Below are positions 3,064 through 19,039 of a stretch of DNA of 64,000 nt, piece by piece. The position numbers were made by a program, and so were the translations under genes. This stretch comes from a bacterium (GTDB taxonomy: Bacteria > Myxococcota_A > UBA9160 > UBA4427): NCBI GenBank assembly GCA_024742285.1, contig JANSYR010000003.1, positions 310,001 through 374,000 on the forward strand, read 5' to 3'. The notes under the pieces were generated by a model. It saw only the letters and a program-made list of their open reading frames with translations, ran no database searches and was not told where the DNA came from. The number at the start of each line of letters is the position of its first letter. Within the stretch, counting starts at the first letter, position 1.

Positions 3064-4422
3064 ATGGCACCGCCTCCCGCGTCTGCAGTCGCCGACTCGA
3101 TGACGGCCCCGGCTGCACCCAGGGATTCACAGACCAACGTCGACATCATGGCGGTCACGAAGGGCTTTCACTGGCCCTGGCTGATCGCCCTGATCTTCGC
3201 CGTCTCCGGAGTCGGGTTGGCTGCCGGCACGCTGGCCTACCAGACCTACGTGGGTCTCGGAATCGCCGGCTACCAGGCGCCGGTCTTCTGGGGCGTCTAC
3301 ATCATCACGTTCGTCTTCTGGATCGGCATCGGCCACGCCGGCACGCTGATCTCGGCGATCCTCTTCCTCTTCCGGGCGAAGTGGCGGAACGCGATCAACC
3401 GCGGCGCCGAGGCGATGACGGTCTTCGCCGTCCTCACCGCGGCGCTCTTCCCGCTGATCCACATCGGGCGCCTCTGGAAGTTCTACTTCCTCCTGCCCTA
3501 CCCGAACCAGCGCTACCTCTGGGTCAACTTCAAGAGCCCGCTCCTCTGGGACGTGTTCGCGGTCAACACCTACCTGACGATCTCGCTCTTGTTCTTTCTG
3601 GTCGGATTGATCCCCGACATCGCGATCGCCCGCGACCGCGCCGTCGGATGGAAGAAGGCGGTCTACACGGTTCTCGCCGGTGGCTGGCAGGGCACGGGCA
3701 AGCAGTGGAAGGCGCACAATCGGACCGTCCTTCACCTGTCCGGCATCGCGACCCCGCTGGTCCTCTCGGTCCACTCGATCGTTTCCTGGGACTTCGCCAT
3801 GTCGATCGTCCCGGGCTGGCACGCCACGATCTTCGCGCCCTACTTCGTCGCGGGCGCGATCTTCGGCGGCTTCGCCATGGTGATCAACGTGATGATCCCG
3901 GTCCGCCGGATCTTCAAGCTCGAGCGGTACATCACCGACTACCACTTCGAGAACATGTCGCGGTTCATCCTCTTCACGAGTCTGATCTGCGGCTACGCCT
4001 ACGGCGCCGAATACTTCATCGCCTGGTACTCGGGCGTCGAGTTCGAGCAGACCTCGTTCTGGCTGCGCGCCTTCGGTCCCTACTGGTTCTCGACCTGGTG
4101 CATGATCATCTTCAACGTCGTCATGCCCCAGCTCCTGTGGATCAAGAAGCTCCGGACGAACCTGCCCTTCCTGTTCATCCTCTGCTTCTTCATCAACCTG
4201 GGCATGTGGTTCGAGCGGTACGTGATCATCATCACCTCGCTCTCCCGCGAGTACGTGCCGGCGGCCTGGGGTCTCTACATCCCCAGCACCACCGAGCTGA
4301 TCGTCCTCACGGGCAGCTTCTGCTGGTTCAGCATGTTCTTCCTCCTGTTCCTGAAGATGTTCCCGATCATCGCCATCGCCGAGGTCAAGGAACTCGACAT
4401 CCACGCGAAGGAGCACCACTGA
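3064..4422 (+). CDS. actC: Alternative complex III subunit ActC (NrfD-like membrane protein)
   Basis: ActC is an NrfD/PsrC-family integral membrane subunit of alternative complex III and is thought to form the quinol site and a proton path beside ActB. The 452-residue product begins with about 30 hydrophilic residues and then shows roughly ten hydrophobic helices, the first around WPWLIALIFAVSGVG. Characteristic stretches are GHAGTLISAILFL and the aromatic loop LLPYPNQRYLWVNFKSPLLWD. It starts one base after the actB stop, with GGAGG just upstream, and is followed after one base by actD. This order and tight spacing are typical of act operons. Confidence 0.95.
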   Translation: MAPPPASAVADSMTAPAAPRDSQTNVDIMAVTKGFHWPWLIALIFAVSGVGLAAGTLAYQTYVGLGIAGYQAPVFWGVYIITFVFWIGIGHAGTLISAILFLFRAKWRNAINRGAEAMTVFAVLTAALFPLIHIGRLWKFYFLLPYPNQRYLWVNFKSPLLWDVFAVNTYLTISLLFFLVGLIPDIAIARDRAVGWKKAVYTVLAGGWQGTGKQWKAHNRTVLHLSGIATPLVLSVHSIVSWDFAMSIVPGWHATIFAPYFVAGAIFGGFAMVINVMIPVRRIFKLERYITDYHFENMSRFILFTSLICGYAYGAEYFIAWYSGVEFEQTSFWLRAFGPYWFSTWCMIIFNVVMPQLLWIKKLRTNLPFLFILCFFINLGMWFERYVIIITSLSREYVPAAWGLYIPSTTELIVLTGSFCWFSMFFLLFLKMFPIIAIAEVKELDIHAKEHH

Positions 4423-4423
4423 G

Positions 4424-4924
4424 ATGCCGACTCTCGTGAGCGTCTATGACCTGGTGTCGGATACGTCGAACGCCGTGCGGAGCCTCAAGGCCCGCGGCTT
4501 CGACGAGCTGACGACCTACTCGCCGGCTCCCTTCGACGAGCTCGAAGAAGCGGAAGACCCGACGCCCTCCAAGGTGCGGATCTTCACCCTGCTCGGCGGC
4601 CTGGTCGGCGTCGTGACCGGCTTCGGCATCCAGATCTGGATGTCGATGGACTGGCCGATCAAGATCGCGGGCAAGAACTTCGCGGCGATCCCGCCCATGT
4701 GGATCATCGGCTTCGAGCTGACGATTCTCTTCGGCGGCGTCCTGACCGTGCTGGCGCTCTTCGCGCTCGGCGGTCTCTATCCCCGCCCGCTCGACAAGCA
4801 CTACAGCCCCCGCTTCTCCGCCGAGGAGTTCGGCGTCGTCGTCGAATGCGCGGAGCGGGACGTGGCCGAGGTCGAAGCCGTCATGCGCGGCAACGGTGCG
4901 AAGGAGGTTTCTCTTCATGCGTAG
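4424..4924 (+). CDS. actD: Alternative complex III subunit ActD (DUF3341)
   Basis: ActD is a small two-helix membrane subunit of alternative complex III (DUF3341 family). The 166-residue protein has a soluble N-terminal part that begins VSVYDLVSDT, with the family pattern of a short alpha/beta segment ending TYSPAPFDE. Two transmembrane helices follow, at about residues 52-70 and 90-112. A C-terminal soluble part ends with VECAERDVAEVEAVM. AAGGAG precedes the start, which lies one base after actC. Its last eight bases overlap the first codons of actE, so translation of the two is probably coupled. Confidence 0.93.
   Translation: MPTLVSVYDLVSDTSNAVRSLKARGFDELTTYSPAPFDELEEAEDPTPSKVRIFTLLGGLVGVVTGFGIQIWMSMDWPIKIAGKNFAAIPPMWIIGFELTILFGGVLTVLALFALGGLYPRPLDKHYSPRFSAEEFGVVVECAERDVAEVEAVMRGNGAKEVSLHA
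4901..4907 (+). promoter_or_regulatory. Ribosome binding site that fixes the actE start at 4917
   Basis: AAGGAGG lies inside the end of actD, nine bases before the ATG at 4917. This is the best initiation signal for actE. It argues that the arginine-rich repeat leader is translated, rather than the frame starting at 4896 or only at the internal ATG at 5052. Confidence 0.7.
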
Positions 4925-4993
4925 CCGCAGGCGCCTCATGCGTAGCCGCAGCCGCTCCACGCGTAGCCGCAGGCGCTCCATGCGTAGTGCGAC
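4917..4993 (+). repeat. 21-bp tandem repeat containing the actE start codon
   Basis: Units of 21 bp begin at 4917, 4938 and 4959, with a partial copy from 4980. Each opens ATGCGTAGCCGC or a close variant; the third opens ACG instead of ATG, and the fourth diverges after ATGCGTAG. The period is seven codons, so the frame is kept. The second half of each unit varies (AGGCGCCTC, AGCCGCTCC, AGGCGCTCC). Confidence 0.9.
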
Positions 4994-5603
4994 CGCGACC
5001 CACTCCCTTTCGCAGCCCATCCGCGGCAGCCACACGACGGAACGTCGTGTGATGATGGGCGTGATGTGCTTCTTCTTCCTGACGCAGGTCGGGTGCTGGG
5101 AGCAGGTCTCGAAGGAATGGTTCGAGCAGATGAAGTGGCAGCCGGCCGTCCAGGCGTTCGAGCTGAACCAGTACGACCACCAGATCCAGATCACGAATCT
5201 GAGCCCGCCCGACGGGACGGTCCCGATCGGCTGGGGCAGCGTGCCGGACCTCGCTTCGATGTCGCTCTCCGAGCAGGACGCGGTCCCGAACCCGAACGCG
5301 GCGACCTTCGAGTCCCTCGCGCGCGGCAAGGAGTACTTCGACGTCAACTGCGCGACCTGTCACGGCCCGACCGGCGGTGGCAACGGTCCGATCGCGGCGC
5401 CGAACGGTCCGATCCAGGGCGTGCTGCCGATCGGTCCCGGTTCGCCGCTGGGCTTCAGCCTCGCGCCGGGCCTCACTGATGGCCACATCTACACCACGAT
5501 CTCCCTCGGCCGCGGCCGCATGCCGAGCTACCGCCGGATTCCGCCGGAAGCACGCTGGGACGTCGTGAACTACATCCGCGACCTCAACGGTCAGGGAGGT
5601 TGA
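4917..5603 (+). CDS. actE: Alternative complex III subunit ActE (monohaem cytochrome c lipoprotein) with repeat leader
   Basis: ActE is the lipid-anchored monohaem cytochrome c of alternative complex III and passes electrons out of the complex on the periplasmic side. From the ATG at 4917 it has 228 residues. The haem motif CATCH is at 145-149, and MPSYRR near the C terminus supplies a likely Met ligand. The export signal is not at the N terminus. A hydrophobic segment ending LTQVGC places the lipidated Cys at residue 60. Before it lie about 24 residues of a seven-residue repeat (MRSRRRL, MRSRSRS, TRSRRRS, MRS) and a Ser/Thr-rich stretch. A later start at the ATG at 5052 would give a more usual short signal but has no good ribosome site. 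The gene overlaps actD and ends inside the start region of actF. Confidence 0.92.
   Translation: MRSRRRLMRSRSRSTRSRRRSMRSATATHSLSQPIRGSHTTERRVMMGVMCFFFLTQVGCWEQVSKEWFEQMKWQPAVQAFELNQYDHQIQITNLSPPDGTVPIGWGSVPDLASMSLSEQDAVPNPNAATFESLARGKEYFDVNCATCHGPTGGGNGPIAAPNGPIQGVLPIGPGSPLGFSLAPGLTDGHIYTTISLGRGRMPSYRRIPPEARWDVVNYIRDLNGQGG
5031..5051. other. Perfect 9-bp inverted repeat in the actE leader
   Basis: The arms CACACGACG (5031-5039) and CGTCGTGTG (5043-5051) are exact reverse complements around a GAA loop. The structure ends immediately before the internal ATG at 5052, which opens the hydrophobic signal sequence. No T-tract follows, so it is not an ordinary terminator. It could form an mRNA hairpin or a protein-binding palindrome. 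Confidence 0.6.
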
Positions 5604-5605
5604 TC

Positions 5606-6928
5606 GTGAGCGCTGTTGCAACCGCAGCCGAGCGCGCCAATCCGGGCGCTCTTCCCAAGCCGCTCTTCCAGGCCTGCCTCGCCGCCGTCGTGGTCGGCAT
5701 CGTCTCCCTGATCGGGGGCGTTGCGTCGGATCCGCAGACGGCCTGGCTGTCCTTCCATGCCAACTTCATCTTCTTCACGATGTTGTCCTGTGGCGGCCTC
5801 GTGCTGACCGCGATCTACTCGATCGTCGGCGCGCACTGGCCGGGGCCCTATCGCCGCTTCGCGGAGAGCCTCGCCGCCTTCATTCCGGTCGCCTTCGTGC
5901 TCGGATGCGTCGGCTACTTCGGCGGCGAGTACATCTTCGACTGGCAGGCGAACGGCGCCATGCACGGCAAGGAAGGCTGGCTGTCGAAGGGTCGCTTCTA
6001 CGGCACGGACCTGGGTCTGCTGGCGATCATGTCCTTCCTCTCGGTCGCGATGCTCAAGGCCTCGTCCCGCCCGAACCTGCGCAACCTCGCGGAGAACGGC
6101 GAAGGCTTCGCCAAGCGCATGGCGGAGAGCTGGACCGCCGGCTGGAAGGGAGACGAAGAGGAGCGTGAGGCGTCGAAGAAGAAGACCGCCTTCATCGCCC
6201 CCTTCATCGGCCTCGTCTACGGCATCGGCTTCGCCTTCTTCGCCTTCGATCAGGTCATGTCGATGGAGCAGGCGTGGTTCTCGAACCTCTTCGGCAACTT
6301 CGTGTGCTGGGGCGGAATCCTCTCCGCCGTCGCCGCGTGCGCCGTGTCGGGCCTCCTCTCGAAGGACCTGCCCGGCTTCGAGGGCGAGATCACCGAGAGC
6401 CGGATGCACGACATCGGCAAGATGATGTTCGCGTTCTCGATCTTCTGGTTCTACCTCTTCTGGGCGCAGTACCTGGTCATCTACTACGGCAACCTGCCGG
6501 AAGAGACCTACTACCTGCGGGATCGCCTCGGCGACCAGTTCCTGATCGACAAGGGCTACTCCGCGGCGGCGTTCGCGAAGAGCTGGACGAACTGGGACTT
6601 CTCCTGGGCGCGCTTCCAGACCGGCTACGGCTGGATGGCGATGGCGACCTGGGCCTGCAACTGGGTCCTGCCCTTCTTCGTCCTCCTCGGGCAGCGCCCG
6701 AAGAAGACCCCGTGGATCGCGGGTCCGATCGCCGGTCTGCTGCTCTTCGGCCTCTGGCTCGAGCGCAACTTGCTCGTCTGGCCCTCGGTCGTGAAGGGCG
6801 ACATGACGGCGCCCTTCGGCCTGATCCAGTTCGGGATCGCCGCCGGCTTCATCGGCGCGTTCCTGGCGGTGGTGCTCTACTACAGCCGGGTCTTCCCGAC
6901 GGTCGCGGTCGCGGTGAAGGAAGACTAG
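5606..6928 (+). CDS. actF: Alternative complex III subunit ActF (NrfD-like membrane protein)
   Basis: ActF is the second multi-helix quinol-related membrane subunit of alternative complex III, related to but shorter in motif content than ActC. The product has 440 residues and about ten transmembrane helices. Recognisable stretches are GPYRRFAESLAAFIP, the cytoplasmic loop with KKKTAFIAPFIG and the helix FWFYLFWAQYLVIYYGNLPEE. GTG at 5606 is preferred because GGGAGG sits six bases upstream; an in-frame TTG at 5600 overlaps the actE stop and is less likely. No actG or terminal oxidase gene follows, and the operon stops at a strong terminator. Confidence 0.93.
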   Translation: MSAVATAAERANPGALPKPLFQACLAAVVVGIVSLIGGVASDPQTAWLSFHANFIFFTMLSCGGLVLTAIYSIVGAHWPGPYRRFAESLAAFIPVAFVLGCVGYFGGEYIFDWQANGAMHGKEGWLSKGRFYGTDLGLLAIMSFLSVAMLKASSRPNLRNLAENGEGFAKRMAESWTAGWKGDEEEREASKKKTAFIAPFIGLVYGIGFAFFAFDQVMSMEQAWFSNLFGNFVCWGGILSAVAACAVSGLLSKDLPGFEGEITESRMHDIGKMMFAFSIFWFYLFWAQYLVIYYGNLPEETYYLRDRLGDQFLIDKGYSAAAFAKSWTNWDFSWARFQTGYGWMAMATWACNWVLPFFVLLGQRPKKTPWIAGPIAGLLLFGLWLERNLLVWPSVVKGDMTAPFGLIQFGIAAGFIGAFLAVVLYYSRVFPTVAVAVKED

Positions 6929-8608: not shown

Positions 8609-8700
8609 TCGCGGGCTCGAAACGAGACGATGACCGTGCCGGAACGATCTATCGTCCTTGGGATCGGTCCCGCATGGGACCGAGGAGGGCCGCGATTCCG

Positions 8701-10428
8701 ATGCGTCATCTGATCCCGATCGTTCCCATGCTCGTGCACATCCTGCTTCCGGTGGCGGTGCGCGCGGAAATTCCCGAACCCGTTCCCCACGTGCACCCCG
8801 AGTTCGCCGCGTACTCCGACGCGAACGACGATGCCCGACTCGTGAAGGTGAGCGAGCACGTCTACGCGGCCGTCGGCTACGACATCGGGAACATCGGATA
8901 CGTCGTGACCGAGGAGGGGGTGCTCGTCTTCGACACCGGCGGCGAGGTCCCCCGCGCGCAGCGCGCCCTCGCGGCGCTTCGGGAAGTGACCGACGCGCCG
9001 ATCGTCGGCGTGGTGTACTCCCACGGCCACGGCGACCATACGGGCGGGATCGACGCGTTCGTTCCGCCCGACCAGCGCGGCGACGTTCCGATCTACGCGG
9101 GCAGGAATTTCGAGCGCTACCTCCGGGAGAGCGCCGTTCCGCGGGGTCTCATGCGGGCCTACTACCAGATGGGCTACCTGCTTCCCAAAGACGAGACCGG
9201 AAGCGTCGGCTCGGGGATCGGTCCCGCCGTCGGATCGGGCGGTGCGACCTATCAGCGGCCGACGGTCGTCGTCGAGGACACGCTCGACCTCGAGATCGGG
9301 GGCGTTCGCATCCACCTCTTCTGGGGAAACACCGACCTCGACGACGGTCTCTCGATGTGGCTCCCCGAAGAGAAGGTGATGTTCGTGGGGGATGCCGCCT
9401 ACCCGATGCTTCCCGCGATCGCGACGCCACGTTTCGAGTTCGGCCGCCAGTCGTGGGAGGCGCTCGAGACCCTCGATCGATACCGGACCTTTCCGATCGA
9501 GCACCTCGTTCCCGGCCATCTGCGGGTGATCTCGGGGCGCGAGGAGGTCGCCCGATTCCTCACGAATTTCCGCGACCTCGTCCAGTACATGCAGGACCAG
9601 GCGATTCGAGCGGTCAATCGACGGCTCGACCACGCGGAGGCCGCCACCGAGATGGAAGCGAATCTTCCGCCCCACCTCGCCGACGATCCGAATCTGGCCG
9701 AGCGCTATCACGAGTTCGACTGGATCGCCAAGCAGATGTACACGAAGGCCGGCGGCTGGTGGAATGGGGACGTCGTCGACCTGATCGCGATCCCGCCGAA
9801 GGCCCGCGCGGAGCGGACCCTCGAGCTGATCGGCAGCCGGCGCAAGGTGCGTCGCGCCGCGGAGAAGGCCTTCGAACGCGGTGAACGCGGATGGGCGGCC
9901 GAGCTCGTCCGGATGCTGGTCGTGACGGATCCAGGAGACGCGAAGGCGAAGGAGATGCTTGCCCGGATCCTCCGTACGGTCGCCTACGACGCGAACACGT
10001 CGAATCTCCGTCACTACCTGCTGACGGAGGCGCTCGTCATGGAGGGCAAGGCGGATCTCGAGTCCCTCCCGATCGACGTCGCGAATCCGCACTTCCTCGC
10101 GGCGAATCCCGACTCGGTGATGTTTCGCGCGATGGGGACGAAGCTCGACCCGGTGTCCAGTGCCGAAGTCGAGCTCGTCGGTGGATTCACGATTCGCGAT
10201 ACGGCGGAGGAGCACACCCTGATCATCCGCCGGGGCGTGATCGAATGGCGCGCGGGGCGCCCCGAGAATGCAGACGTTCGCGTCGCCTTCGATCGGCGGA
10301 CCTGGCTCCTGATCGCCGGAGGGCACCTGCGCTTTCTCGACGCACAGGCCAAAGGTCTGCTCGAAGCGAGCCCCGGCCGGGAGGCGCTCGCGGCATTCGT
10401 TCGACACTTCGACGGAGAGGGTCGGTAG
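8701..10428 (+). CDS. Alkylsulfatase-type metallo-beta-lactamase hydrolase
   Basis: Type III alkylsulfatases hydrolyse primary alkyl sulfates such as dodecyl sulfate in the periplasm with a binuclear zinc site. The metal motif is H108-G-H-G-D-H113. Further ligands are likely in FWGNTDLDDG, FVGDAAYP and HLVPGHL. The middle part contains MYTKAGGWWNGDVVDL, which resembles the alkylsulfatase dimerisation domain. The last ~120 residues resemble the SCP2-like substrate-binding domain. ATG at 8701 is chosen because GAGGAGG precedes it and it opens a signal peptide ending AVRA. A start at 8674 would add nine residues. At 575 residues it is shorter than SdsA1-type enzymes (about 650), so the substrate is uncertain. 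The next gene begins 62 bases later. Confidence 0.85.
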   Translation: MRHLIPIVPMLVHILLPVAVRAEIPEPVPHVHPEFAAYSDANDDARLVKVSEHVYAAVGYDIGNIGYVVTEEGVLVFDTGGEVPRAQRALAALREVTDAPIVGVVYSHGHGDHTGGIDAFVPPDQRGDVPIYAGRNFERYLRESAVPRGLMRAYYQMGYLLPKDETGSVGSGIGPAVGSGGATYQRPTVVVEDTLDLEIGGVRIHLFWGNTDLDDGLSMWLPEEKVMFVGDAAYPMLPAIATPRFEFGRQSWEALETLDRYRTFPIEHLVPGHLRVISGREEVARFLTNFRDLVQYMQDQAIRAVNRRLDHAEAATEMEANLPPHLADDPNLAERYHEFDWIAKQMYTKAGGWWNGDVVDLIAIPPKARAERTLELIGSRRKVRRAAEKAFERGERGWAAELVRMLVVTDPGDAKAKEMLARILRTVAYDANTSNLRHYLLTEALVMEGKADLESLPIDVANPHFLAANPDSVMFRAMGTKLDPVSSAEVELVGGFTIRDTAEEHTLIIRRGVIEWRAGRPENADVRVAFDRRTWLLIAGGHLRFLDAQAKGLLEASPGREALAAFVRHFDGEGR

Positions 10429-10490: not shown

Positions 10491-12056
10491 ATGACGGCGC
10501 GTGTCGACCTCCTCGCCGACGAATCGGCGATTCGCGACACGCTCGCGCGCTACTGGCGCGGGATCGACCGGCGGGACGTGGCACTCGTCGCGAGCGCCTA
10601 TCACCCGGATGCCCAGGACGATCACGGCTATTTCGAGGGGTCGGTCGAAGGGTTCCTCGAGTCCCTCGAGCCTTCGGTCTGGCGCTTCTTCGAGAAGACC
10701 TTTCATTTCAGCGGTCAGATCGCGGTCGACTTCGATCCCTCGTGTCCCGACCGTGCGGTCGCCGAGTCCTACGCCGAAGCGCATCACCTTCGCCGGGGGG
10801 AAGACGGGGCGCTCCACGACCTCGTGTACGGACTTCGGTACGTGGACGCGTTCGAGCGCCGCGACGAAGAGTGGCGGATCGCTCGGCGCGTCTGCGCCTG
10901 GGATTGGGCGCGCACCGACCCTTGCGGCGCGATTCCCCTCCCGGACACCTACGCTCGCGGTCGGAACTCGCGAGCGGATCCCGTCTTCGGCCAGCCGCAG
11001 AGGACCGGAGCTCCCGAATCCCTCGACACGCTCGCGATCAAGCGGGCCTGCTCGGACACCCTCGCGCGCTACGCGCGCGGGGTCGATCGCTGCGACGTGG
11101 AACTCGTCGCCAGTGCGTACCATCCGGATGCCTACGACGACCACGGCGGCTACCAGGGGGATGCGGCCGGCTTCGTCGCCTGGGTGAAGCCGACGGTCAT
11201 GGACGCGTTCACCTGCACGATGCACAAGCTCGGCAACCAGCTGATCGTGGTCGAGGAGGGGCGCGCCTGGGCGGAGACCTACGCGATCGCGCACCACGTC
11301 CAGGGAGACAGCGACCTGCCGACGGACATGATCATGGGTGTCCGGTACCTGGACACCCTCGAGGATCGCGGCGATGGGTGGAAGATCGCGGATCGCAGGA
11401 TGACCTTCGAATGGGAGCGATCCGTCGAGATCGGCTCCCAGACGGAGTACGAAGGCTTTGCGCGCGGTCGGAGGGACGGCAGCGACCCCGCGCTCGCGCC
11501 CCGTACGACGGTCGCCGTGCCGGTCGGGAGCTCCGAGATGGCGGAGCATGCGGAGATCCAGGCGGCGCTCTTCCGCTATTGCCGGGGCGTCGATCGCCGG
11601 GATCCCGACCTGATCCGCAGCACCTATCACGCGGACGCCTTCGACGACCACGGCGTGTACAAGGGAGATCTCGAGGGCTTCCTCGAGTTCGTCGAACGGG
11701 AGGTCTGGGCGAGGTTCCGGACGACGATGCACAAGCTCGGACAGGCGCTGATCGAGATCGACGGCGACGTGGCCTCCGCGGAGACCTACGCGGTCTGCCA
11801 CCACGTGATCGCCGAGAACGGCCGGGACGTCGCCGACAGCGTGATGGGGATTCGATACCTCGATCGCTTCGAGCGGCGCGCGGGCTGCTGGCGGATCGCT
11901 CGGCGCGAGCTGCGCTGGGAGTGGATCCGGCTGGACGCGCTCGTCCCCCTCGATGCCGACTGGACGCTGGGACGGGCCGATGCGCACGATCCGGTCTGCC
12001 TGGCGGTTTCGGGAGAAGGCCCCGGGTCAGCGGCCGGCGAGTCGGGTCTCGGGTAG
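10491..12056 (+). CDS. Triple SnoaL/LinA-like (NTF2 fold) domain protein
   Basis: The 521-residue protein is three tandem copies of a SnoaL_4-like domain, at about 1-165, 175-340 and 350-505. Each has the same signature: an Arg-Gly-(Ile/Val)-Asp-Arg stretch, then YHxDAxDDHG, then a His 46 residues after the Asp, then a closing basic/Trp strand. In domain 1 the pair is Asp26 and His72. LinA, a dehydrochlorinase of this fold, uses Asp25 and His73. All three domains keep the pair, so all may be active on dehydratase- or dehydrochlorinase-type chemistry. The substrate is unknown. Single-domain relatives are usual. The ATG at 10491 lacks a clear ribosome site. It may be cotranscribed with the upstream alkylsulfatase-like gene and the downstream luciferase-like oxidoreductase. 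Confidence 0.8.
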   Translation: MTARVDLLADESAIRDTLARYWRGIDRRDVALVASAYHPDAQDDHGYFEGSVEGFLESLEPSVWRFFEKTFHFSGQIAVDFDPSCPDRAVAESYAEAHHLRRGEDGALHDLVYGLRYVDAFERRDEEWRIARRVCAWDWARTDPCGAIPLPDTYARGRNSRADPVFGQPQRTGAPESLDTLAIKRACSDTLARYARGVDRCDVELVASAYHPDAYDDHGGYQGDAAGFVAWVKPTVMDAFTCTMHKLGNQLIVVEEGRAWAETYAIAHHVQGDSDLPTDMIMGVRYLDTLEDRGDGWKIADRRMTFEWERSVEIGSQTEYEGFARGRRDGSDPALAPRTTVAVPVGSSEMAEHAEIQAALFRYCRGVDRRDPDLIRSTYHADAFDDHGVYKGDLEGFLEFVEREVWARFRTTMHKLGQALIEIDGDVASAETYAVCHHVIAENGRDVADSVMGIRYLDRFERRAGCWRIARRELRWEWIRLDALVPLDADWTLGRADAHDPVCLAVSGEGPGSAAGESGLG

Positions 12057-12126: not shown

Positions 12127-13041
12127 TTGAGCACCCCCTCCCTTCCGCTTCCCGCCCTGGCCCTCGCGGCCGTGCCCGGCCGTCGCCAGAAGACCCTCGA
12201 CCTCGCCAAGGAGATCGAGCGCCGTGGCTATGCCGGGATCTACTGCGCGAGCTTCGGGGATGGCGTCGGGCTGTCGCATTCCCTGGCCCACGTGACGGAA
12301 CGGATTCCGTTCGGCACGTCGATCGCGAACATCTACACGCGCCACGTGAGAGATTATGCGCAGACGATCTCGATGATCCACGAGCTGTCCGGCGGGCGCT
12401 TCCGATTCGGGATCGGCGTGAGTCACGATGCGATGAACGGGCGCCTCGGGATCAAGGGAGGCAAGCCCCTCGGCGACATCCGGGAGTTCGTCTCGGGTCT
12501 GCACGGCGCGAAGCGGGTGGGCGACCTCCCGCCGATCGTGATCGCAGGGCTGCGCACGAAGATGGTGTCGCTCTCCGCGGAGATCGCAGACGGCGTCGTG
12601 TACGCGAACGTCTCCCGGCGACATACGCCGAAGTCGCTCTCGGTGATCCCCGAGGCGCGGCGCTCGAGCGACGACTTCTTCGTCGGAAACATGATCCCGA
12701 CCTGCGTCTCGGACGATCTCGAGGCCGCCGCGGCGATCAACCGTCGCACCCTGATCATGTACGTGAACTACCCGAACTACCGGAACTACTGGAAGGAGGC
12801 GGGCTACGTCGAGGAGATGGAGGCGATCGAAGCCGCCATCGAAGCGGGGGAGCAGGACCGGCTGACCTCGCTCATGACCGACGAATGGCTCTCCGACTGC
12901 ACCCTCTACGGACCCGCGAGCCGGGTTCTCGAGGGGCTCGAAGCGTGGTACGCAGCCGGCCTGAAGACACCGGTGCTCGTGCCATCGTCGGCGAGCGGTG
13001 GCCAGTTCGAGGCCTTCGAAGAGGTCTTCTCGCTGTTCTGA
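12127..13041 (+). CDS. Luciferase-like flavin/F420-dependent oxidoreductase
   Basis: This is a TIM-barrel luciferase-like (LLM class) oxidoreductase that would use FMN or coenzyme F420. The 304-residue product has the expected features: GYAGIYCASFGDG near the N terminus, RIPFGTSIANIYTRH, the GGRFRFGIGVSH substrate/cofactor strand, PPIVIAGLRTKMVSLSAEIADGV, and a C-terminal helix closing on a variable tail. The family does not reveal the substrate. TTG at 12127 is preferred because AGAGAGAAG lies just before it. An upstream extension would overlap the preceding SnoaL-like gene by about 100 bases. It converges on the methyltransferase gene across a 31-base gap. Confidence 0.85.
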   Translation: MSTPSLPLPALALAAVPGRRQKTLDLAKEIERRGYAGIYCASFGDGVGLSHSLAHVTERIPFGTSIANIYTRHVRDYAQTISMIHELSGGRFRFGIGVSHDAMNGRLGIKGGKPLGDIREFVSGLHGAKRVGDLPPIVIAGLRTKMVSLSAEIADGVVYANVSRRHTPKSLSVIPEARRSSDDFFVGNMIPTCVSDDLEAAAAINRRTLIMYVNYPNYRNYWKEAGYVEEMEAIEAAIEAGEQDRLTSLMTDEWLSDCTLYGPASRVLEGLEAWYAAGLKTPVLVPSSASGGQFEAFEEVFSLF

Positions 13042-13072: not shown

Positions 13073-13951
13073 TCAGGCTGCCTCGAGGGTGACCAGTCGC
13101 GACGGGACGCCGGCGTGCATGCCGTCGGTCCGGTCGGCGTAGTAGCGGGCGTTCAGGTCCGCCTCGGTCGCGTGTTCGACGAGCCGGAAGCCGCGCTCGG
13201 CGACGAGTTCCTCGAAGCGCTCGGGCAGCCAGCTGCTGACCCAGGGCTCGCCACCTTCCTCGGTGGTCATCCCGATCCGGCCGAGATAGTCCGCCTGCTC
13301 GGGGGTGAGCGGGACCTTGCCCTGGTAGTTCAGGCAGAGGCGGCTTCCCGGCGCCATCAGCGTCCGGACGTCCGCGAGGGTGGCTTCGGTCGCCTCGACG
13401 GAAACGTAGGGGATCGTGTTCATCCACGACCAGACGGACGGGCGTAAGGAATCGAAGCCTGCCGCGGGGAGCGCCTCGGAGACCTTCGTCGATTCGAAGT
13501 CGATCGGGACGAACGTGGGGACCTGGGCGGGCGTCTTCCCGGCGGCCTCGATTCGGCGCCGCTTGAGGGCCTGCACGTCCGGGAAGTCGACCTCGAAGAC
13601 GCGGACGCGGTCCGCCAGGTCGTCGCGACGAAGCGCGAACGTGTCGAACCCCGCCCCCAGGATCACGTACTGGTCGACCCCCGCTTCGACGCATCGCTCG
13701 ACCTCGTCCTCCGCATAGCGAAGCGAGCCGATCCCGACGGCCAGGATCAGCCGGAAGTCGATGCCCGAGCCGGCGAGGACCTTCGCGTCGTTCTCCGGGT
13801 CCTGGGCGACCCCCCGCGACGCTTCGCCGAGGAGCTCGAGGGCCCAGGTGTCCCGCAAAACCGGGTCTTCCGCGTGGAGCGTGTGGCTCGCGCGCCCGAG
13901 GACCGCGCCCTCCGCCGTGCCGAGACTCTCTCCATCTCCCGTCTTGGCCAT
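13073..13951 (-). CDS. Class I SAM-dependent methyltransferase (TIGR00027/leucine carboxyl methyltransferase-like)
   Basis: The 292-residue protein matches the family of SAM methyltransferases annotated as TIGR00027, abundant in mycobacteria and soil deltaproteobacteria. The SAM-binding motif is VDQYVILGAGFDTFALR, followed by the acidic strand VFEVDFPDVQALKRRR. Other family hallmarks are FVPIDFES and WSWMNTIPYVS, where related proteins have a WExxxxYL element. The methyl acceptor is not known for most members. It shares a strand with the DUF1214 gene, which lies upstream and ends 12 bases before this start, so the two are probably one transcript. Confidence 0.85.
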   Translation of the reverse strand: MAKTGDGESLGTAEGAVLGRASHTLHAEDPVLRDTWALELLGEASRGVAQDPENDAKVLAGSGIDFRLILAVGIGSLRYAEDEVERCVEAGVDQYVILGAGFDTFALRRDDLADRVRVFEVDFPDVQALKRRRIEAAGKTPAQVPTFVPIDFESTKVSEALPAAGFDSLRPSVWSWMNTIPYVSVEATEATLADVRTLMAPGSRLCLNYQGKVPLTPEQADYLGRIGMTTEEGGEPWVSSWLPERFEELVAERGFRLVEHATEADLNARYYADRTDGMHAGVPSRLVTLEAA

Positions 13952-13963
13952 GCTCTCCTCCTT

Positions 13964-15157
13964 CTAGCGTCGATAGCGCGTCACGACGGCGCGGTAGCGC
14001 CGACGCAGCGCTTCCGCGCGCGCCTCGGGCGTGACCCGGGGCGTCGACGCCGGCAAGTGTTCGCGGAGGCCTGCGAACGGCACGCGTTCGAAGGCCGGCG
14101 TCGGCGCCTCGTCCGCCCCGAGGAAGCGCATCGCGACCGTACCTCGGGTGTCGCTGGCCGGGTCGAGCCAGTTCGGGACGCCGGGATCCGAGTGCGCGAT
14201 CACGGCACGAAAGACGCCGTCGTCGTCGACCTGTGCCTGGGCGTGGTTGAGCGAGCTCTGACGGGACGCGAACTCGATCTGCTCCCAATAGCGATTGCCC
14301 ATCGCGAAGACCCAATGATGGGAGGCCGGGGGCACGAACGAGACGATCACGGCCTCGTCGGCCCCGCAGGCGAAGTTGCCCATGCAGTACGACTGGTCGG
14401 CCGCGCCCGCGTTCTTCGCCGCGCGGTCCGCGGCGTGGGTGATCACCGAGTTCTCCGGGAGCGAGAGGAAGCCGGCGCTCATCTGCGCCCACTGTTCCGC
14501 CCCCTTCACGAGCCAGGTCTCGAGGAGCGCGAGCTGGGCGCGGACACGCTCCGGCGTGGGTGGCGGGATCGGCCAGGTCGCGTCCTCGCGTTCGATGAAG
14601 AGATCGGCGGGTCGCTCGTGCTCCCAGTCCCCGAAGTACTGACGGACGAGCAGGAAGCCCGCGTCCTCCCGCGAAGGCAGCCAGTGCGCCGCTCCGGTTT
14701 CGCCCGCGCGCCCTCCGATCTGGAGGTCGAGCACGTCCCCGTCGCCGAGTTCGAGCGCGCGGGCGTCTGCGGACGCGACCGTCTCCGTCGCCGCGACGCT
14801 TCCGAGGGCGAAGTGGCCGGCGTTCACCTGGACGTCGAAATGGTTCGCGCTTCCGCGAGGGCCGCGCACGCGGTAGACGCCGTCACCGGCGAGCGGGGCG
14901 TAGAGGTAGAGACAATCGGGATGATCGAGGCCCCAGGGCATCGTGTAGTCCATCATCCGACCGAAGACGGGGTGCTCCGGATCGTTGTGGAGCACGCAGC
15001 TCACGAGCCCCGCCGCCAGGAAGCGCGCCACATAGCGTTCGGCTTCTGCCTCGAAGCGCGGGGTGTCCGGGGCGTCGATCTGCGCCACGATCTCCGCGGC
15101 GCGCTCGATCGCCCCGGCGATCTCGGGCCACGGTTTCGCGTCGATTGATCCGGCCAT
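13964..15157 (-). CDS. DUF1214 domain protein
   Basis: The C-terminal half carries the DUF1214 pattern. HHWVFAMGNRYWEQIEF is followed by a strand, then RQSSLNHAQAQVDDDGVFRAV, SDPGVPNWLDPASDTRGTVAMRFL and a final PTPAFERVPF. The N-terminal half is a beta-rich region rich in aromatic residues that is often seen with this domain. No signal peptide is present. Function is not established; such proteins occur beside lipid- and xenobiotic-handling genes in environmental bacteria. The start at 15157 (MAGSIDAKPWPE) gives 397 residues. The open frame continues upstream to 15433 but would run through the divergent sulfotransferase gene, so the shorter form is taken. Confidence 0.8.
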   Translation of the reverse strand: MAGSIDAKPWPEIAGAIERAAEIVAQIDAPDTPRFEAEAERYVARFLAAGLVSCVLHNDPEHPVFGRMMDYTMPWGLDHPDCLYLYAPLAGDGVYRVRGPRGSANHFDVQVNAGHFALGSVAATETVASADARALELGDGDVLDLQIGGRAGETGAAHWLPSREDAGFLLVRQYFGDWEHERPADLFIEREDATWPIPPPTPERVRAQLALLETWLVKGAEQWAQMSAGFLSLPENSVITHAADRAAKNAGAADQSYCMGNFACGADEAVIVSFVPPASHHWVFAMGNRYWEQIEFASRQSSLNHAQAQVDDDGVFRAVIAHSDPGVPNWLDPASDTRGTVAMRFLGADEAPTPAFERVPFAGLREHLPASTPRVTPEARAEALRRRYRAVVTRYRR

Positions 15158-15223
15158 CAGCGGATACGATAGATCGCTCGCGGCGGGTGCGCGTGAGCCC
15201 CGACCGTCGGAGGAGACCCACGC

Positions 15224-16258
15224 ATGGATCGATTCGTCGTGGGCTCCGGGCGATGTGGCTCGACGCTCCTGTCCCGGATGCTCGATCTGCACCCCGAGGT
15301 CACCTCGGTCTTCGAGTTCTTCAATGGTCTCGACGTGACCCGGCGCTTCGCGCCGACGCTCGAAGGCGCGGACCTCGCGACGCTCCTGGCCGCCGAGCAG
15401 ACCGTCGTCACGGCCGCCTTGCGACGGGGTCACACTGCGGAGGAGGTCGTCTATCCCTTCGGCGCGGCCGGGGCGCGCTACGGGCCCGAGGATGCGCTTC
15501 CGTGGCTCTGCGTGGCGATGGCGCCACGGCTGACGGACGAGCCCGACGCGCTCTTCGACGCGCTGATCGCCTGGGCGCGGTCACGCCCGAGGGCCTCCGC
15601 GGCCGATCACTACCGCGCGCTCTTCGTCTGGCTCTGTGAGCGCCAGGGCACTCGCGCCTGGATCGAGCGCTCGGGCTCTTCGGTCGACTACGCGGCGGCG
15701 CTGGCCGCGAGCTTTCCCTCGGCCCGCTTCCTCCACATCCACCGCGACGGCCCCGAGACCGCGCTCTCGATGCGGGAGCACGGGATCTACCGCTTGCCCG
15801 TCGCGATGCTCTACGACGTTCTCCTCCCGAGCGGGCGCCGTTTCTCGACGGAGGGCGGCGTCGACTTCGCCGCGCCGCCGGAACCCGGGGACTGGATCTC
15901 GGAGGCGCTCGCGACCCGGCTGCCGCCCGAAGTCTTCGGCCGCTACTGGAGCGATCAGGTCGAACGGGGGGCGCAGGCTGCGGCCGAGATCGGGCGGGAG
16001 CGTTTCGCCGAGATCTCCTTCGAGGCCCTCGTCGATCGACCCGCGGAGACGCTCGCATTCGTGGCCGCGTTCTTCGAGCTGCCCTCGGGCGATCGATGGA
16101 TCGACGCCGCGGCGGCCCTCGTTCGTGGCCGTCCGCCCGCGCGGCGTCCGGCGCTGGAGGCGGAAGGACGGCGCACGCTCGATGACGCATGTGCGCCCGG
16201 GCGCGAGGCGATCCGAACGGCCCGCGACAAGGGGCTCGTCCGGACGGCCGACGACTGA
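15224..16258 (+). CDS. PAPS-dependent sulfotransferase family protein
   Basis: The N-terminal P-loop-like motif GSGRCGSTLLSRMLDLHPE binds the 5'-phosphosulfate of PAPS in this family. The second conserved element, FLHIHRDGPETALSMREH, carries the 3'-phosphate-binding Arg and Ser. The 344-residue length is normal for the sulfotransferase_3 type (PF13469). There is no signal peptide or membrane segment, so it is cytosolic. The acceptor could be a lipid, a small molecule or a carbohydrate. GGAGGA precedes the start. It is divergent from the DUF1214 gene over 66 bases and convergent with the next gene. Confidence 0.82.
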   Translation: MDRFVVGSGRCGSTLLSRMLDLHPEVTSVFEFFNGLDVTRRFAPTLEGADLATLLAAEQTVVTAALRRGHTAEEVVYPFGAAGARYGPEDALPWLCVAMAPRLTDEPDALFDALIAWARSRPRASAADHYRALFVWLCERQGTRAWIERSGSSVDYAAALAASFPSARFLHIHRDGPETALSMREHGIYRLPVAMLYDVLLPSGRRFSTEGGVDFAAPPEPGDWISEALATRLPPEVFGRYWSDQVERGAQAAAEIGRERFAEISFEALVDRPAETLAFVAAFFELPSGDRWIDAAAALVRGRPPARRPALEAEGRRTLDDACAPGREAIRTARDKGLVRTADD

Positions 16259-17710: not shown

Positions 17711-19039
17711 TCAGCGCCGGCTGCGTCGCCGCGCGACGAAGGCCAGGCCACCGAGCCCCGCAACGAGCGCCATTCCGGTCGCCGGCTCGGGAACCGAGAG
17801 GTTCATGTTGAGCCGGGTGATCCGGAAGAACGAGTTGCCACTGTCGGGATCGACGGCGATCCCGCCTCCGAGCATCACGATGTTCCGGTTCGAGCCCGTG
17901 CCGGCCGGGTTGGGGCCGGTCGTGATCGAGTCGTCACCGGCGCGGCTGAAGAAGAAGCCCTGCGACGCCGGGCGGGTGCCGAAGTTCGGCTCGAAGGGAT
18001 CGCCACCGACCGTCGTCACGACCAGCGTGTACGGGTAGGGGTCCGAGCCGGAGATCGTCCCCGTCGTCATCTTGAAGCCCCAGCCCTGACCGGGCTGGTT
18101 CGGATCGGGGTCCGTGCCGCAGTTGCTGCCGGGACCGACGAAGGGGCTGAACTGCATGAAGCTCTGCCCGACCGTGCCGATGCCGTTGGTGCAGCCGAAC
18201 GTCTCGATGACCGCGCCGTTCGCGTTGAGCCGCGCGAAGACGCGCGGGCCGTTGTTGCCGGGGAGGGTCGTGAACTCGAAGTTCGGGCGACCACCCGTCC
18301 ACGCGAGGCTGTTGATGTCCATGTAGGAGCGCGTCGCCTGCGCGTCGGCCGCGTTCGGCGTCGACGGCTGGGCCGGAACGCGCCAGACGTTCTGGGCGAA
18401 GTTGCGGAGCAGGCTCAGCGTTCCGCCGAAGTTGTTCCGTCCCGAGGCGTTGCTGATCGACATCCGGATGCCGCGGTCGCCCTGGAGGATGGCGTCCAGC
18501 CAGAAGGGGCAGTCCCAGTCGCCGACCTGCGAGGACGCCGTGCCCGGGGCGGGGTTGCCGGGGTTGTGCGCGACCGGCGGGCACCAGGTGATCGCCGTAC
18601 CGGCGGTGTTGCAGCCCGGGCCGGGGCACTCGGCGAGGGCGCCGGCGCCCTCGGCGAAGGTCGCGACGCCCTGCACGCTCATGAAGGACTTGGTCGTCTG
18701 GCCGACGTTGCCGAAGGCCGGGAAGTCACGGAAGTTGAGGCCATTGCGGTTGAGCACGCCGCTCGGGACGGTGACCGTGCGGCCCACGGTGGTGCCCGTG
18801 GTCGCGCCCGCGACGCTGACCGCCTGAACACCGTCGGTCGGCGGGTATTCGACCGCCGCACCAGCGCCTTCCTTGCGACCGTAGACGCCCGGAATCAACT
18901 CGAACCCCGCGGAGGGGTTCTCCACCAGGATGCTTCCGATCATGTTTCGGGGGGCGGCGCTCGCAGTCGTAGCGGCCACGGCCACCACGGACAGAGCGGC
19001 CAGGCCCACGAGGCCCTGGACGAATCTTCGCTTCATCAT
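17711..19039 (-). CDS. PEP-CTERM sorting-domain exported protein
   Basis: The C terminus has the complete PEP-CTERM tripartite signal: VPEPAT, a hydrophobic stretch (GMALVAGLGGLAFVA) and RRRSRR. In Gram-negative bacteria this directs exosortase-dependent processing and surface or exopolysaccharide-associated export. The N terminus is a signal peptide (KRRFVQGLVGLAALSVVAVAATTASA). The 442-residue body is low in charge, rich in Gly, Asn, Thr and Pro, with scattered Cys, and has no recognised enzyme motif. A GAGGAG site precedes the start. The promoter should lie in the 290-base gap 19040-19329. The gene has its own strong terminator. No exosortase gene is in the window. Confidence 0.88.
   Translation of the reverse strand: MMKRRFVQGLVGLAALSVVAVAATTASAAPRNMIGSILVENPSAGFELIPGVYGRKEGAGAAVEYPPTDGVQAVSVAGATTGTTVGRTVTVPSGVLNRNGLNFRDFPAFGNVGQTTKSFMSVQGVATFAEGAGALAECPGPGCNTAGTAITWCPPVAHNPGNPAPGTASSQVGDWDCPFWLDAILQGDRGIRMSISNASGRNNFGGTLSLLRNFAQNVWRVPAQPSTPNAADAQATRSYMDINSLAWTGGRPNFEFTTLPGNNGPRVFARLNANGAVIETFGCTNGIGTVGQSFMQFSPFVGPGSNCGTDPDPNQPGQGWGFKMTTGTISGSDPYPYTLVVTTVGGDPFEPNFGTRPASQGFFFSRAGDDSITTGPNPAGTGSNRNIVMLGGGIAVDPDSGNSFFRITRLNMNLSVPEPATGMALVAGLGGLAFVARRRSRR

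Follow-up and report, generated by a model that had tools for sequence, protein, structure and literature searches.

A single stop-free frame occupies positions 10491-12056 of the plus strand of the window (the whole 64,000-nucleotide stretch of DNA analysed here) and translates into a protein of 521 aa. Pfam recognised SnoaL_4 (PF13577) over three stretches of this protein (E=8.9e-56, 188 bits), and each domain taken alone scored 70-71.5 bits against a cut-off of 24, an arrangement that is repeated in orthologues. An NCBIfam scan of the same protein matched no family. Domain 1 covers residues ~6-144 (10506..10922) and domain 2 residues ~179-312 (11025..11426), both placed by Pfam and alignment, and domain 3 covers residues ~347-480 (11529..11930), placed by Pfam and a single-domain model. 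Between them, on the same strand, lie the C-terminal tail and linker of domain 1 (residues 145-178, 10923..11024), where dN is 0.24-0.49 and above the domain values, and those of domain 2 (residues 313-346, 11427..11528), recognised by conservation comparison and dN. Every domain carries an Asp-His dyad: D26/H72 (codons 10566..10568 and 10704-10706), D199/H245 (11085..11087 and 11223-11225) and D368/H414 (11592..11594 and 11730-11732). The sequence-only reading, which had described three tandem LinA/SnoaL-like domains each with an Asp-His pair 46 residues apart, was thus confirmed by three PF13577 matches and a spacing of 46 in 3/3 domains.

We ruled out that a sequencing or annotation artefact had fused three genes. 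Besides the window, seven independent assemblies carry it as an open frame, and the fusion is therefore no assembly accident. We found no support for an artefact; the distant G065 copy has a frameshift at a stretch of eight Cs.

Of the nine genus genomes, seven, counting that of the window, have an orthologue of the full chain, and the search found none in the other two, G006 and G007. The open orthologues, at 62-77% identity, come from six genomes of the genus other than that of the window and from one genome of another family. The latter, G075, carries a further full-length copy (62% identity) and was recovered by a search of 91 genomes of the class, together with one disrupted copy in G065, which belongs to another order. 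In this copy (L069:8803-10289), the frame changes near the eight-C run, between domains 1 and 2; its domain 2 is degraded, with the DDHG motif, the first helix and one of the two paired His residues (HH) gone. Domains 1 and 3 of this copy appear intact. A 379-genome sample of the phylum contained no further copies of this chain, hereafter called type A. A scan of viral contigs revealed no relatives of the protein, and all 40 plasmid matches listed were single-domain in length. Our searches covered one class in full, its phylum by sample and other phyla through plasmid records alone, and three-domain SnoaL_4 chains may exist beyond the class, the sample and these records.

The genome of the window (6.5 Mb) contains 48 SnoaL_4 matches, an unusual expansion, and among the matches listed the present gene is the only frame with more than one full SnoaL_4 domain. 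In G006, of the same genus, two single-domain SnoaL_4 genes lie side by side on one strand (L059:7817-8347 and L059:8400-8912) and adjoin genes reading like a Rieske oxygenase, MaoC-like proteins and an SDR. This adjacent pair is a possible picture of the state that preceded fusion.

We observed that all three dyads are strictly retained. The Tyr five residues before the Asp, the Asp itself, and the residues corresponding to H45, H72, E92, Y94, H98 and H99 are present, with the spacing of 46, in 21/21 domain copies of the seven genus genomes, and so is the DDH motif; the copy of G008 ends with its contig inside domain 3, and two later columns are unreadable in it. Such retention is beyond what chance would give, and the proposal that all three Asp-His pairs are conserved therefore holds across the genus. 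The spacing of 46 is partly a family constant and by itself weak evidence, because 8 of the 32 single-domain relatives with a dyad have it too (14 of the 32 have a spacing of 45). Furthermore, pairwise comparisons within the genus put dN well under dS for every domain, as illustrated by the window and G003 (dN against dS: 0.14/0.78, 0.08/0.73 and 0.11/0.61 for domains 1, 2 and 3, respectively), and the linkers evolve faster. All three domains are under purifying selection, with all three catalytic sites kept intact. It is the absence of any loss, and not the spacing figure, that is the remarkable feature of this protein.

The phylogeny of the three domains, proposed as a check on the initial reading, returned three old domain clades. 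In maximum-likelihood trees, each domain position formed one well-supported clade spanning genera, and the three-domain chain therefore predates the genus. Domain 2 groups with domain 3 as its sister (support 98/96), and a common origin of all three domains was not rejected in a tree test that included the G065 rows (p=0.35). Based on these two results, the chain probably arose by a duplication that gave domains 2 and 3, with domain 1 added by duplication or by the joining of a relative.

Directly downstream of the gene, after 70 nt, lies a gene for an LLM (luciferase-like, F420/flavin class) oxidoreductase (12127..13041, plus strand, likely TTG start), followed by a convergent gene for a TIGR00027-type SAM methyltransferase (13073..13951, minus strand) whose adjacency is conserved in the genus. 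Both neighbours were found in 5/5 other genus genomes with a contig reaching that far, the LLM match of G002 spanning only the second part of the LLM protein. The link to the luciferase-like gene that the sequence-only reading had drawn is accordingly kept within the genus, but it does not extend beyond it: the type-A gene adjoins a P450 and an efflux system in G075, and amidohydrolases, a glyoxalase-fold protein and a thiamine-diphosphate enzyme in G065. CofD as a test of F420 dependence of the LLM protein was uninformative, as the Pfam model also matches in E. coli. Upstream, an alkylsulfatase-like MBL-fold protein is encoded at 8674..10428 (plus strand). This gene adjoins the three-domain gene in only two of six genomes (the window and G005) and lies elsewhere in G001, and no close orthologue was found in G002, G003, G004 and G008. 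Given this restricted adjacency, the alkylsulfatase stands outside any conserved unit, and its suggested link to the three-domain gene did not hold up. On the upstream side, the genus has a rhomboid gene, itself behind a respiratory gene set. Taken together, the theme common to these neighbourhoods and to those of the type-B genes described below is the breakdown of small organic compounds, although no one pathway is fixed. Ten proteins encoded between 4896 and 17513 were scanned, and none had the polyketide synthase domain expected in the setting of a SnoaL polyketide cyclase; a promoter and terminator scan gave no promoter-like site and one weak terminator that was no better than shuffles.

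Several other features of the surroundings were recorded. A row of NrfD-like membrane proteins and cytochrome c at 3064-6928, also present upstream in the genus, resembles a section of an operon for alternative complex III. A weak DUF1214 protein (13964-15433, minus strand) and a sulfotransferase-family protein (15224-16258, plus strand) overlap at their 5' ends by ~210 bases, and the true start of one of these frames is probably internal. The protein encoded at 17711-19039 (minus strand) has the C-terminus VPEPATGMALVAGLGGLAFVARRRSRR, with the look of a PEP-CTERM sorting signal. Finally, on the Rhizobium tropici plasmid pRtrCIAT899b (L096, 271741-275227), a single-domain relative is followed by an SDR gene and then by an LLM oxidoreductase gene, an order that recalls the SnoaL_4-LLM neighbourhood of the window.

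The nearest sequences in the PDB are LinA (1.4e-9), the putative scytalone dehydratase 3ef8 and Rv3472. Domain 3 modelled from a nine-row alignment (pLDDT 80.9, pTM 0.75) has a predicted cone-shaped alpha+beta (NTF2-like) fold resembling LinA, to which it aligned with TM values of up to 0.70 (query length) and up to 0.82 (target length). The PDB matches of this model were, in order, LinA, 3EF8, Rv3472, BaiE, gallate decarboxylase and scytalone dehydratase. A full-length AlphaFold2 model from an alignment of three closely related rows scored poorly (pLDDT 49.5, pTM 0.34), with domain packing that is unreadable, and for these reasons speaks neither for nor against a trimer. The initial reading had taken LinA-type enzymes to be trimers, and this is borne out by the closest solved structures, since LinA, scytalone dehydratase and BaiE are all trimers. 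LinA is a homotrimer, and the C-terminal segment 139-153 of one subunit touches beta6 of its neighbour (PMC3507683); trimers are also reported for BaiE (PMC13101464) and for gallate decarboxylase (PMC7862292). The H86-D40 dyad of gallate decarboxylase is reported to be shared by LinA, scytalone dehydratase and BaiE (PMC7862292).

The inter-subunit pairs of LinA (PMC3507683 Table 1) were mapped onto the three domains by alignment. The positions of K26-D93', a pair said to occur in scytalone dehydratase too (PMC3507683), are occupied by Arg and Glu, respectively, in every copy of all three domains, without variation. This correspondence is likely rather than certain, because HMMER's alternative alignment of the beta3-beta4 hairpin moves the D93 column by two residues. 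The counterpart of D15-R10' is D16-K184 where domain 1 meets domain 2 and D189-H/R353 where domain 2 meets domain 3. Only the contact of domain 3 with domain 1, which are not covalently joined, has lost the pair; a pattern fitting one ring direction would arise with a chance of about one in three. The LinA pair D19-R79' is not kept in the three-domain protein.

Our main reading, to which we assign a probability of roughly 0.58, is that the protein is a pseudo-heterotrimer made of one chain, of the same type as LinA, scytalone dehydratase and BaiE, and acts as a dehydratase or a related lyase or isomerase. By analogy with these enzymes, the three domains would pack about a pseudo-threefold axis much like three LinA subunits, and the C-terminal tail of each domain would continue via the linker into the next domain. 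Since the tail of LinA reaches the neighbouring subunit, such a head-to-tail fusion would be sterically natural.

A second family of three-domain SnoaL_4 proteins, type B, was found in four genomes of the class: G055 (C59:7079-8377), G075 (C78:6640-7920), G063 (C1:24211-25524) and G015 (C394:778-1749). This layout did not occur in the rest of the phylum sample. The frame of G055 encodes 433 aa with three SnoaL_4 domains, the dyad His of domain 3 being replaced; its relatives share 55% (G075) and 49% (G063) identity with it, and that of G015 is more diverged. The genes adjoin aminotransferase, amidohydrolase, SDR, CoA-transferase or P450 genes. Single domains of type B are ~33-38% identical to type A, and all twelve lie on one side of a branch supported at 99/94, apart from the type-A and single-domain rows; because this tree is unrooted, what it shows is separation. 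The simplest reading of these sequences would be that triplication occurred independently in type A and type B. That both families have three units, no more and no fewer, fits an ancestral trimer better than beads on a string.

Such beads, or a larger assembly, would result if there were no intramolecular trimer and the domains instead trimerised across chains or dimerised. The linkers, ~34 residues with the tails included, are long enough for this arrangement, the full-length model (pTM 0.34, three-row alignment) is compatible with it, and NTF2-like folds form dimers too, as has been suggested for ketosteroid isomerase (PMC13101464). However, exactly three domains occur in two separate families, matching the trimers of the closest relatives, and the trimer-type Arg and Glu positions are invariant in all three domains, and we therefore consider assembly between chains unlikely. 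The reading of the protein as a trimer in one chain is plausible, and is strengthened by type B and by the interface residues.

We then considered the chemistry of the pockets. In the alignment, LinA K20 corresponds to Tyr, I44 to His, L96 to Ala and V94 to Ser or Thr, and the R129 position is Arg in all copies. A candidate pocket set resembling that of scytalone dehydratase and BaiE, namely the dyad, the Tyr five residues before the Asp, and the H45-type and H98-H99-type residues, is invariant in the genus. BaiE likewise has a Tyr five residues before its Asp. In LinA and scytalone dehydratase, the Asp raises the basicity of the His (PMC7862292). In each pocket, the Asp-activated His would act as a general base, aided by the conserved Tyr, the second His and the Arg; it would abstract a proton, upon which water or another leaving group would be eliminated. 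The reaction would most likely be that of a dehydratase or a related lyase or isomerase on a small hydrophobic catabolic intermediate, a lyase chemistry suggested by analogy with LinA and scytalone dehydratase; that the substrate is an aromatic or a terpenoid- or steroid-like intermediate is a guess.

Dehydratase-type chemistry appears likelier than dehydrohalogenation, because the LinA-specific pocket residues are missing and the context is without signs of halogenated substrates. A LinA-like dehydrohalogenase, acting on halogenated compounds in a pathway shared with the alkylsulfatase and luciferase-like proteins, would accord with LinA being the closest solved structure by sequence and fold and with the retained dyad and R129 position. 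Yet identity to LinA is only ~20%, the sulfatase neighbour is not conserved, and Lys20, present in LinA-type1 and replaced by Gln in LinA-type2 (PMC3507683), is Tyr in every copy, which makes this function very improbable. More generally, nothing points to the route for sulfated or halogenated substrates that had been envisaged for this locus.

Many NTF2-like domains are non-catalytic binders or scaffolds, and a protein that matches no NCBIfam family and has no substrate on record could likewise bind a small molecule or serve as a scaffold. This is quite improbable here, as the Asp, the His, the Tyr at D-5 and the His99-type residue are kept in 21/21 domain copies, and the genes found around type-B and related single-domain members include those for oxygenases, amidohydrolases, SDRs and P450s.

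It is also possible, if rather doubtful, that the three pockets are specialised for different or successive reactions on one substrate, an arrangement that is compatible with a pseudo-trimer and for which the trimer is optional. Domain 1 has the motif TxHFSG where domains 2 and 3 have TMHKLG, and all dyads are kept, where purely structural domains could have lost theirs. Three of the five columns that distinguish the domains (LinA 94, 111 and 131) are LinA pocket positions, an enrichment with a probability of ~0.04 in a post hoc hypergeometric calculation made by hand over the 36 columns fixed within each domain. On the other hand, 31 of these 36 columns, all candidate catalytic residues included, are identical across domains, and the differences are mild. 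These counts, being post hoc, are hints of three slightly different pockets.

When the subunits of a symmetric homo-oligomer are fused, symmetry is broken and each active site can evolve separately. Types A and B, beside many single-domain relatives, constitute a natural experiment on stability, activity and pocket divergence. As a tentative and still somewhat unlikely generalisation for the class, SnoaL_4 homotrimers may have become single-chain trimers at least twice, the type-A pockets having then diverged toward different substrates or steps. Within the one library of papers searched for tandem or fused SnoaL domains, no account of three in tandem was found; an oomycete protein with two SnoaL-like domains is mentioned (PMC5023847). 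The chemistry of the three-domain enzyme is probably ordinary, and its novelty is the number of domains within a known kind of enzyme.

Among known systems, LinA (gamma-hexachlorocyclohexane dehydrochlorinase; PDB 3A76/3S5C/5KVB) is the best match by both sequence and fold. It shares the SnoaL_4-type fold, the Asp25-His73 dyad, found in all three domains, and the R129 position, but has one domain per chain, assembles as a homotrimer and is only ~20% identical. Scytalone dehydratase and its putative relative 3EF8 have the same fold, the Asp-His dyad and, one strand further on, another His, which in 3EF8 stands at the H99 column of the alignment; in contrast to the present protein they are single-domain, and identity is low. 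BaiE matches in fold (E ~1e-7) and dyad and is a trimer (PMC7862292, PMC13101464), but it has a single domain and 16-18% identity. Closer in sequence are the single-domain SnoaL_4 proteins annotated as 'nuclear transport factor 2 family protein', the closest of which share 39-47% identity with single domains, have the same dyad and in many cases the same C-terminal GxxDxxDPx tail, with one domain per gene instead of three. Type B alone has exactly three SnoaL_4 domains per chain as type A does, whereas its domains form a separate clade and its neighbours, such as aminotransferase and amidohydrolase genes, are different.
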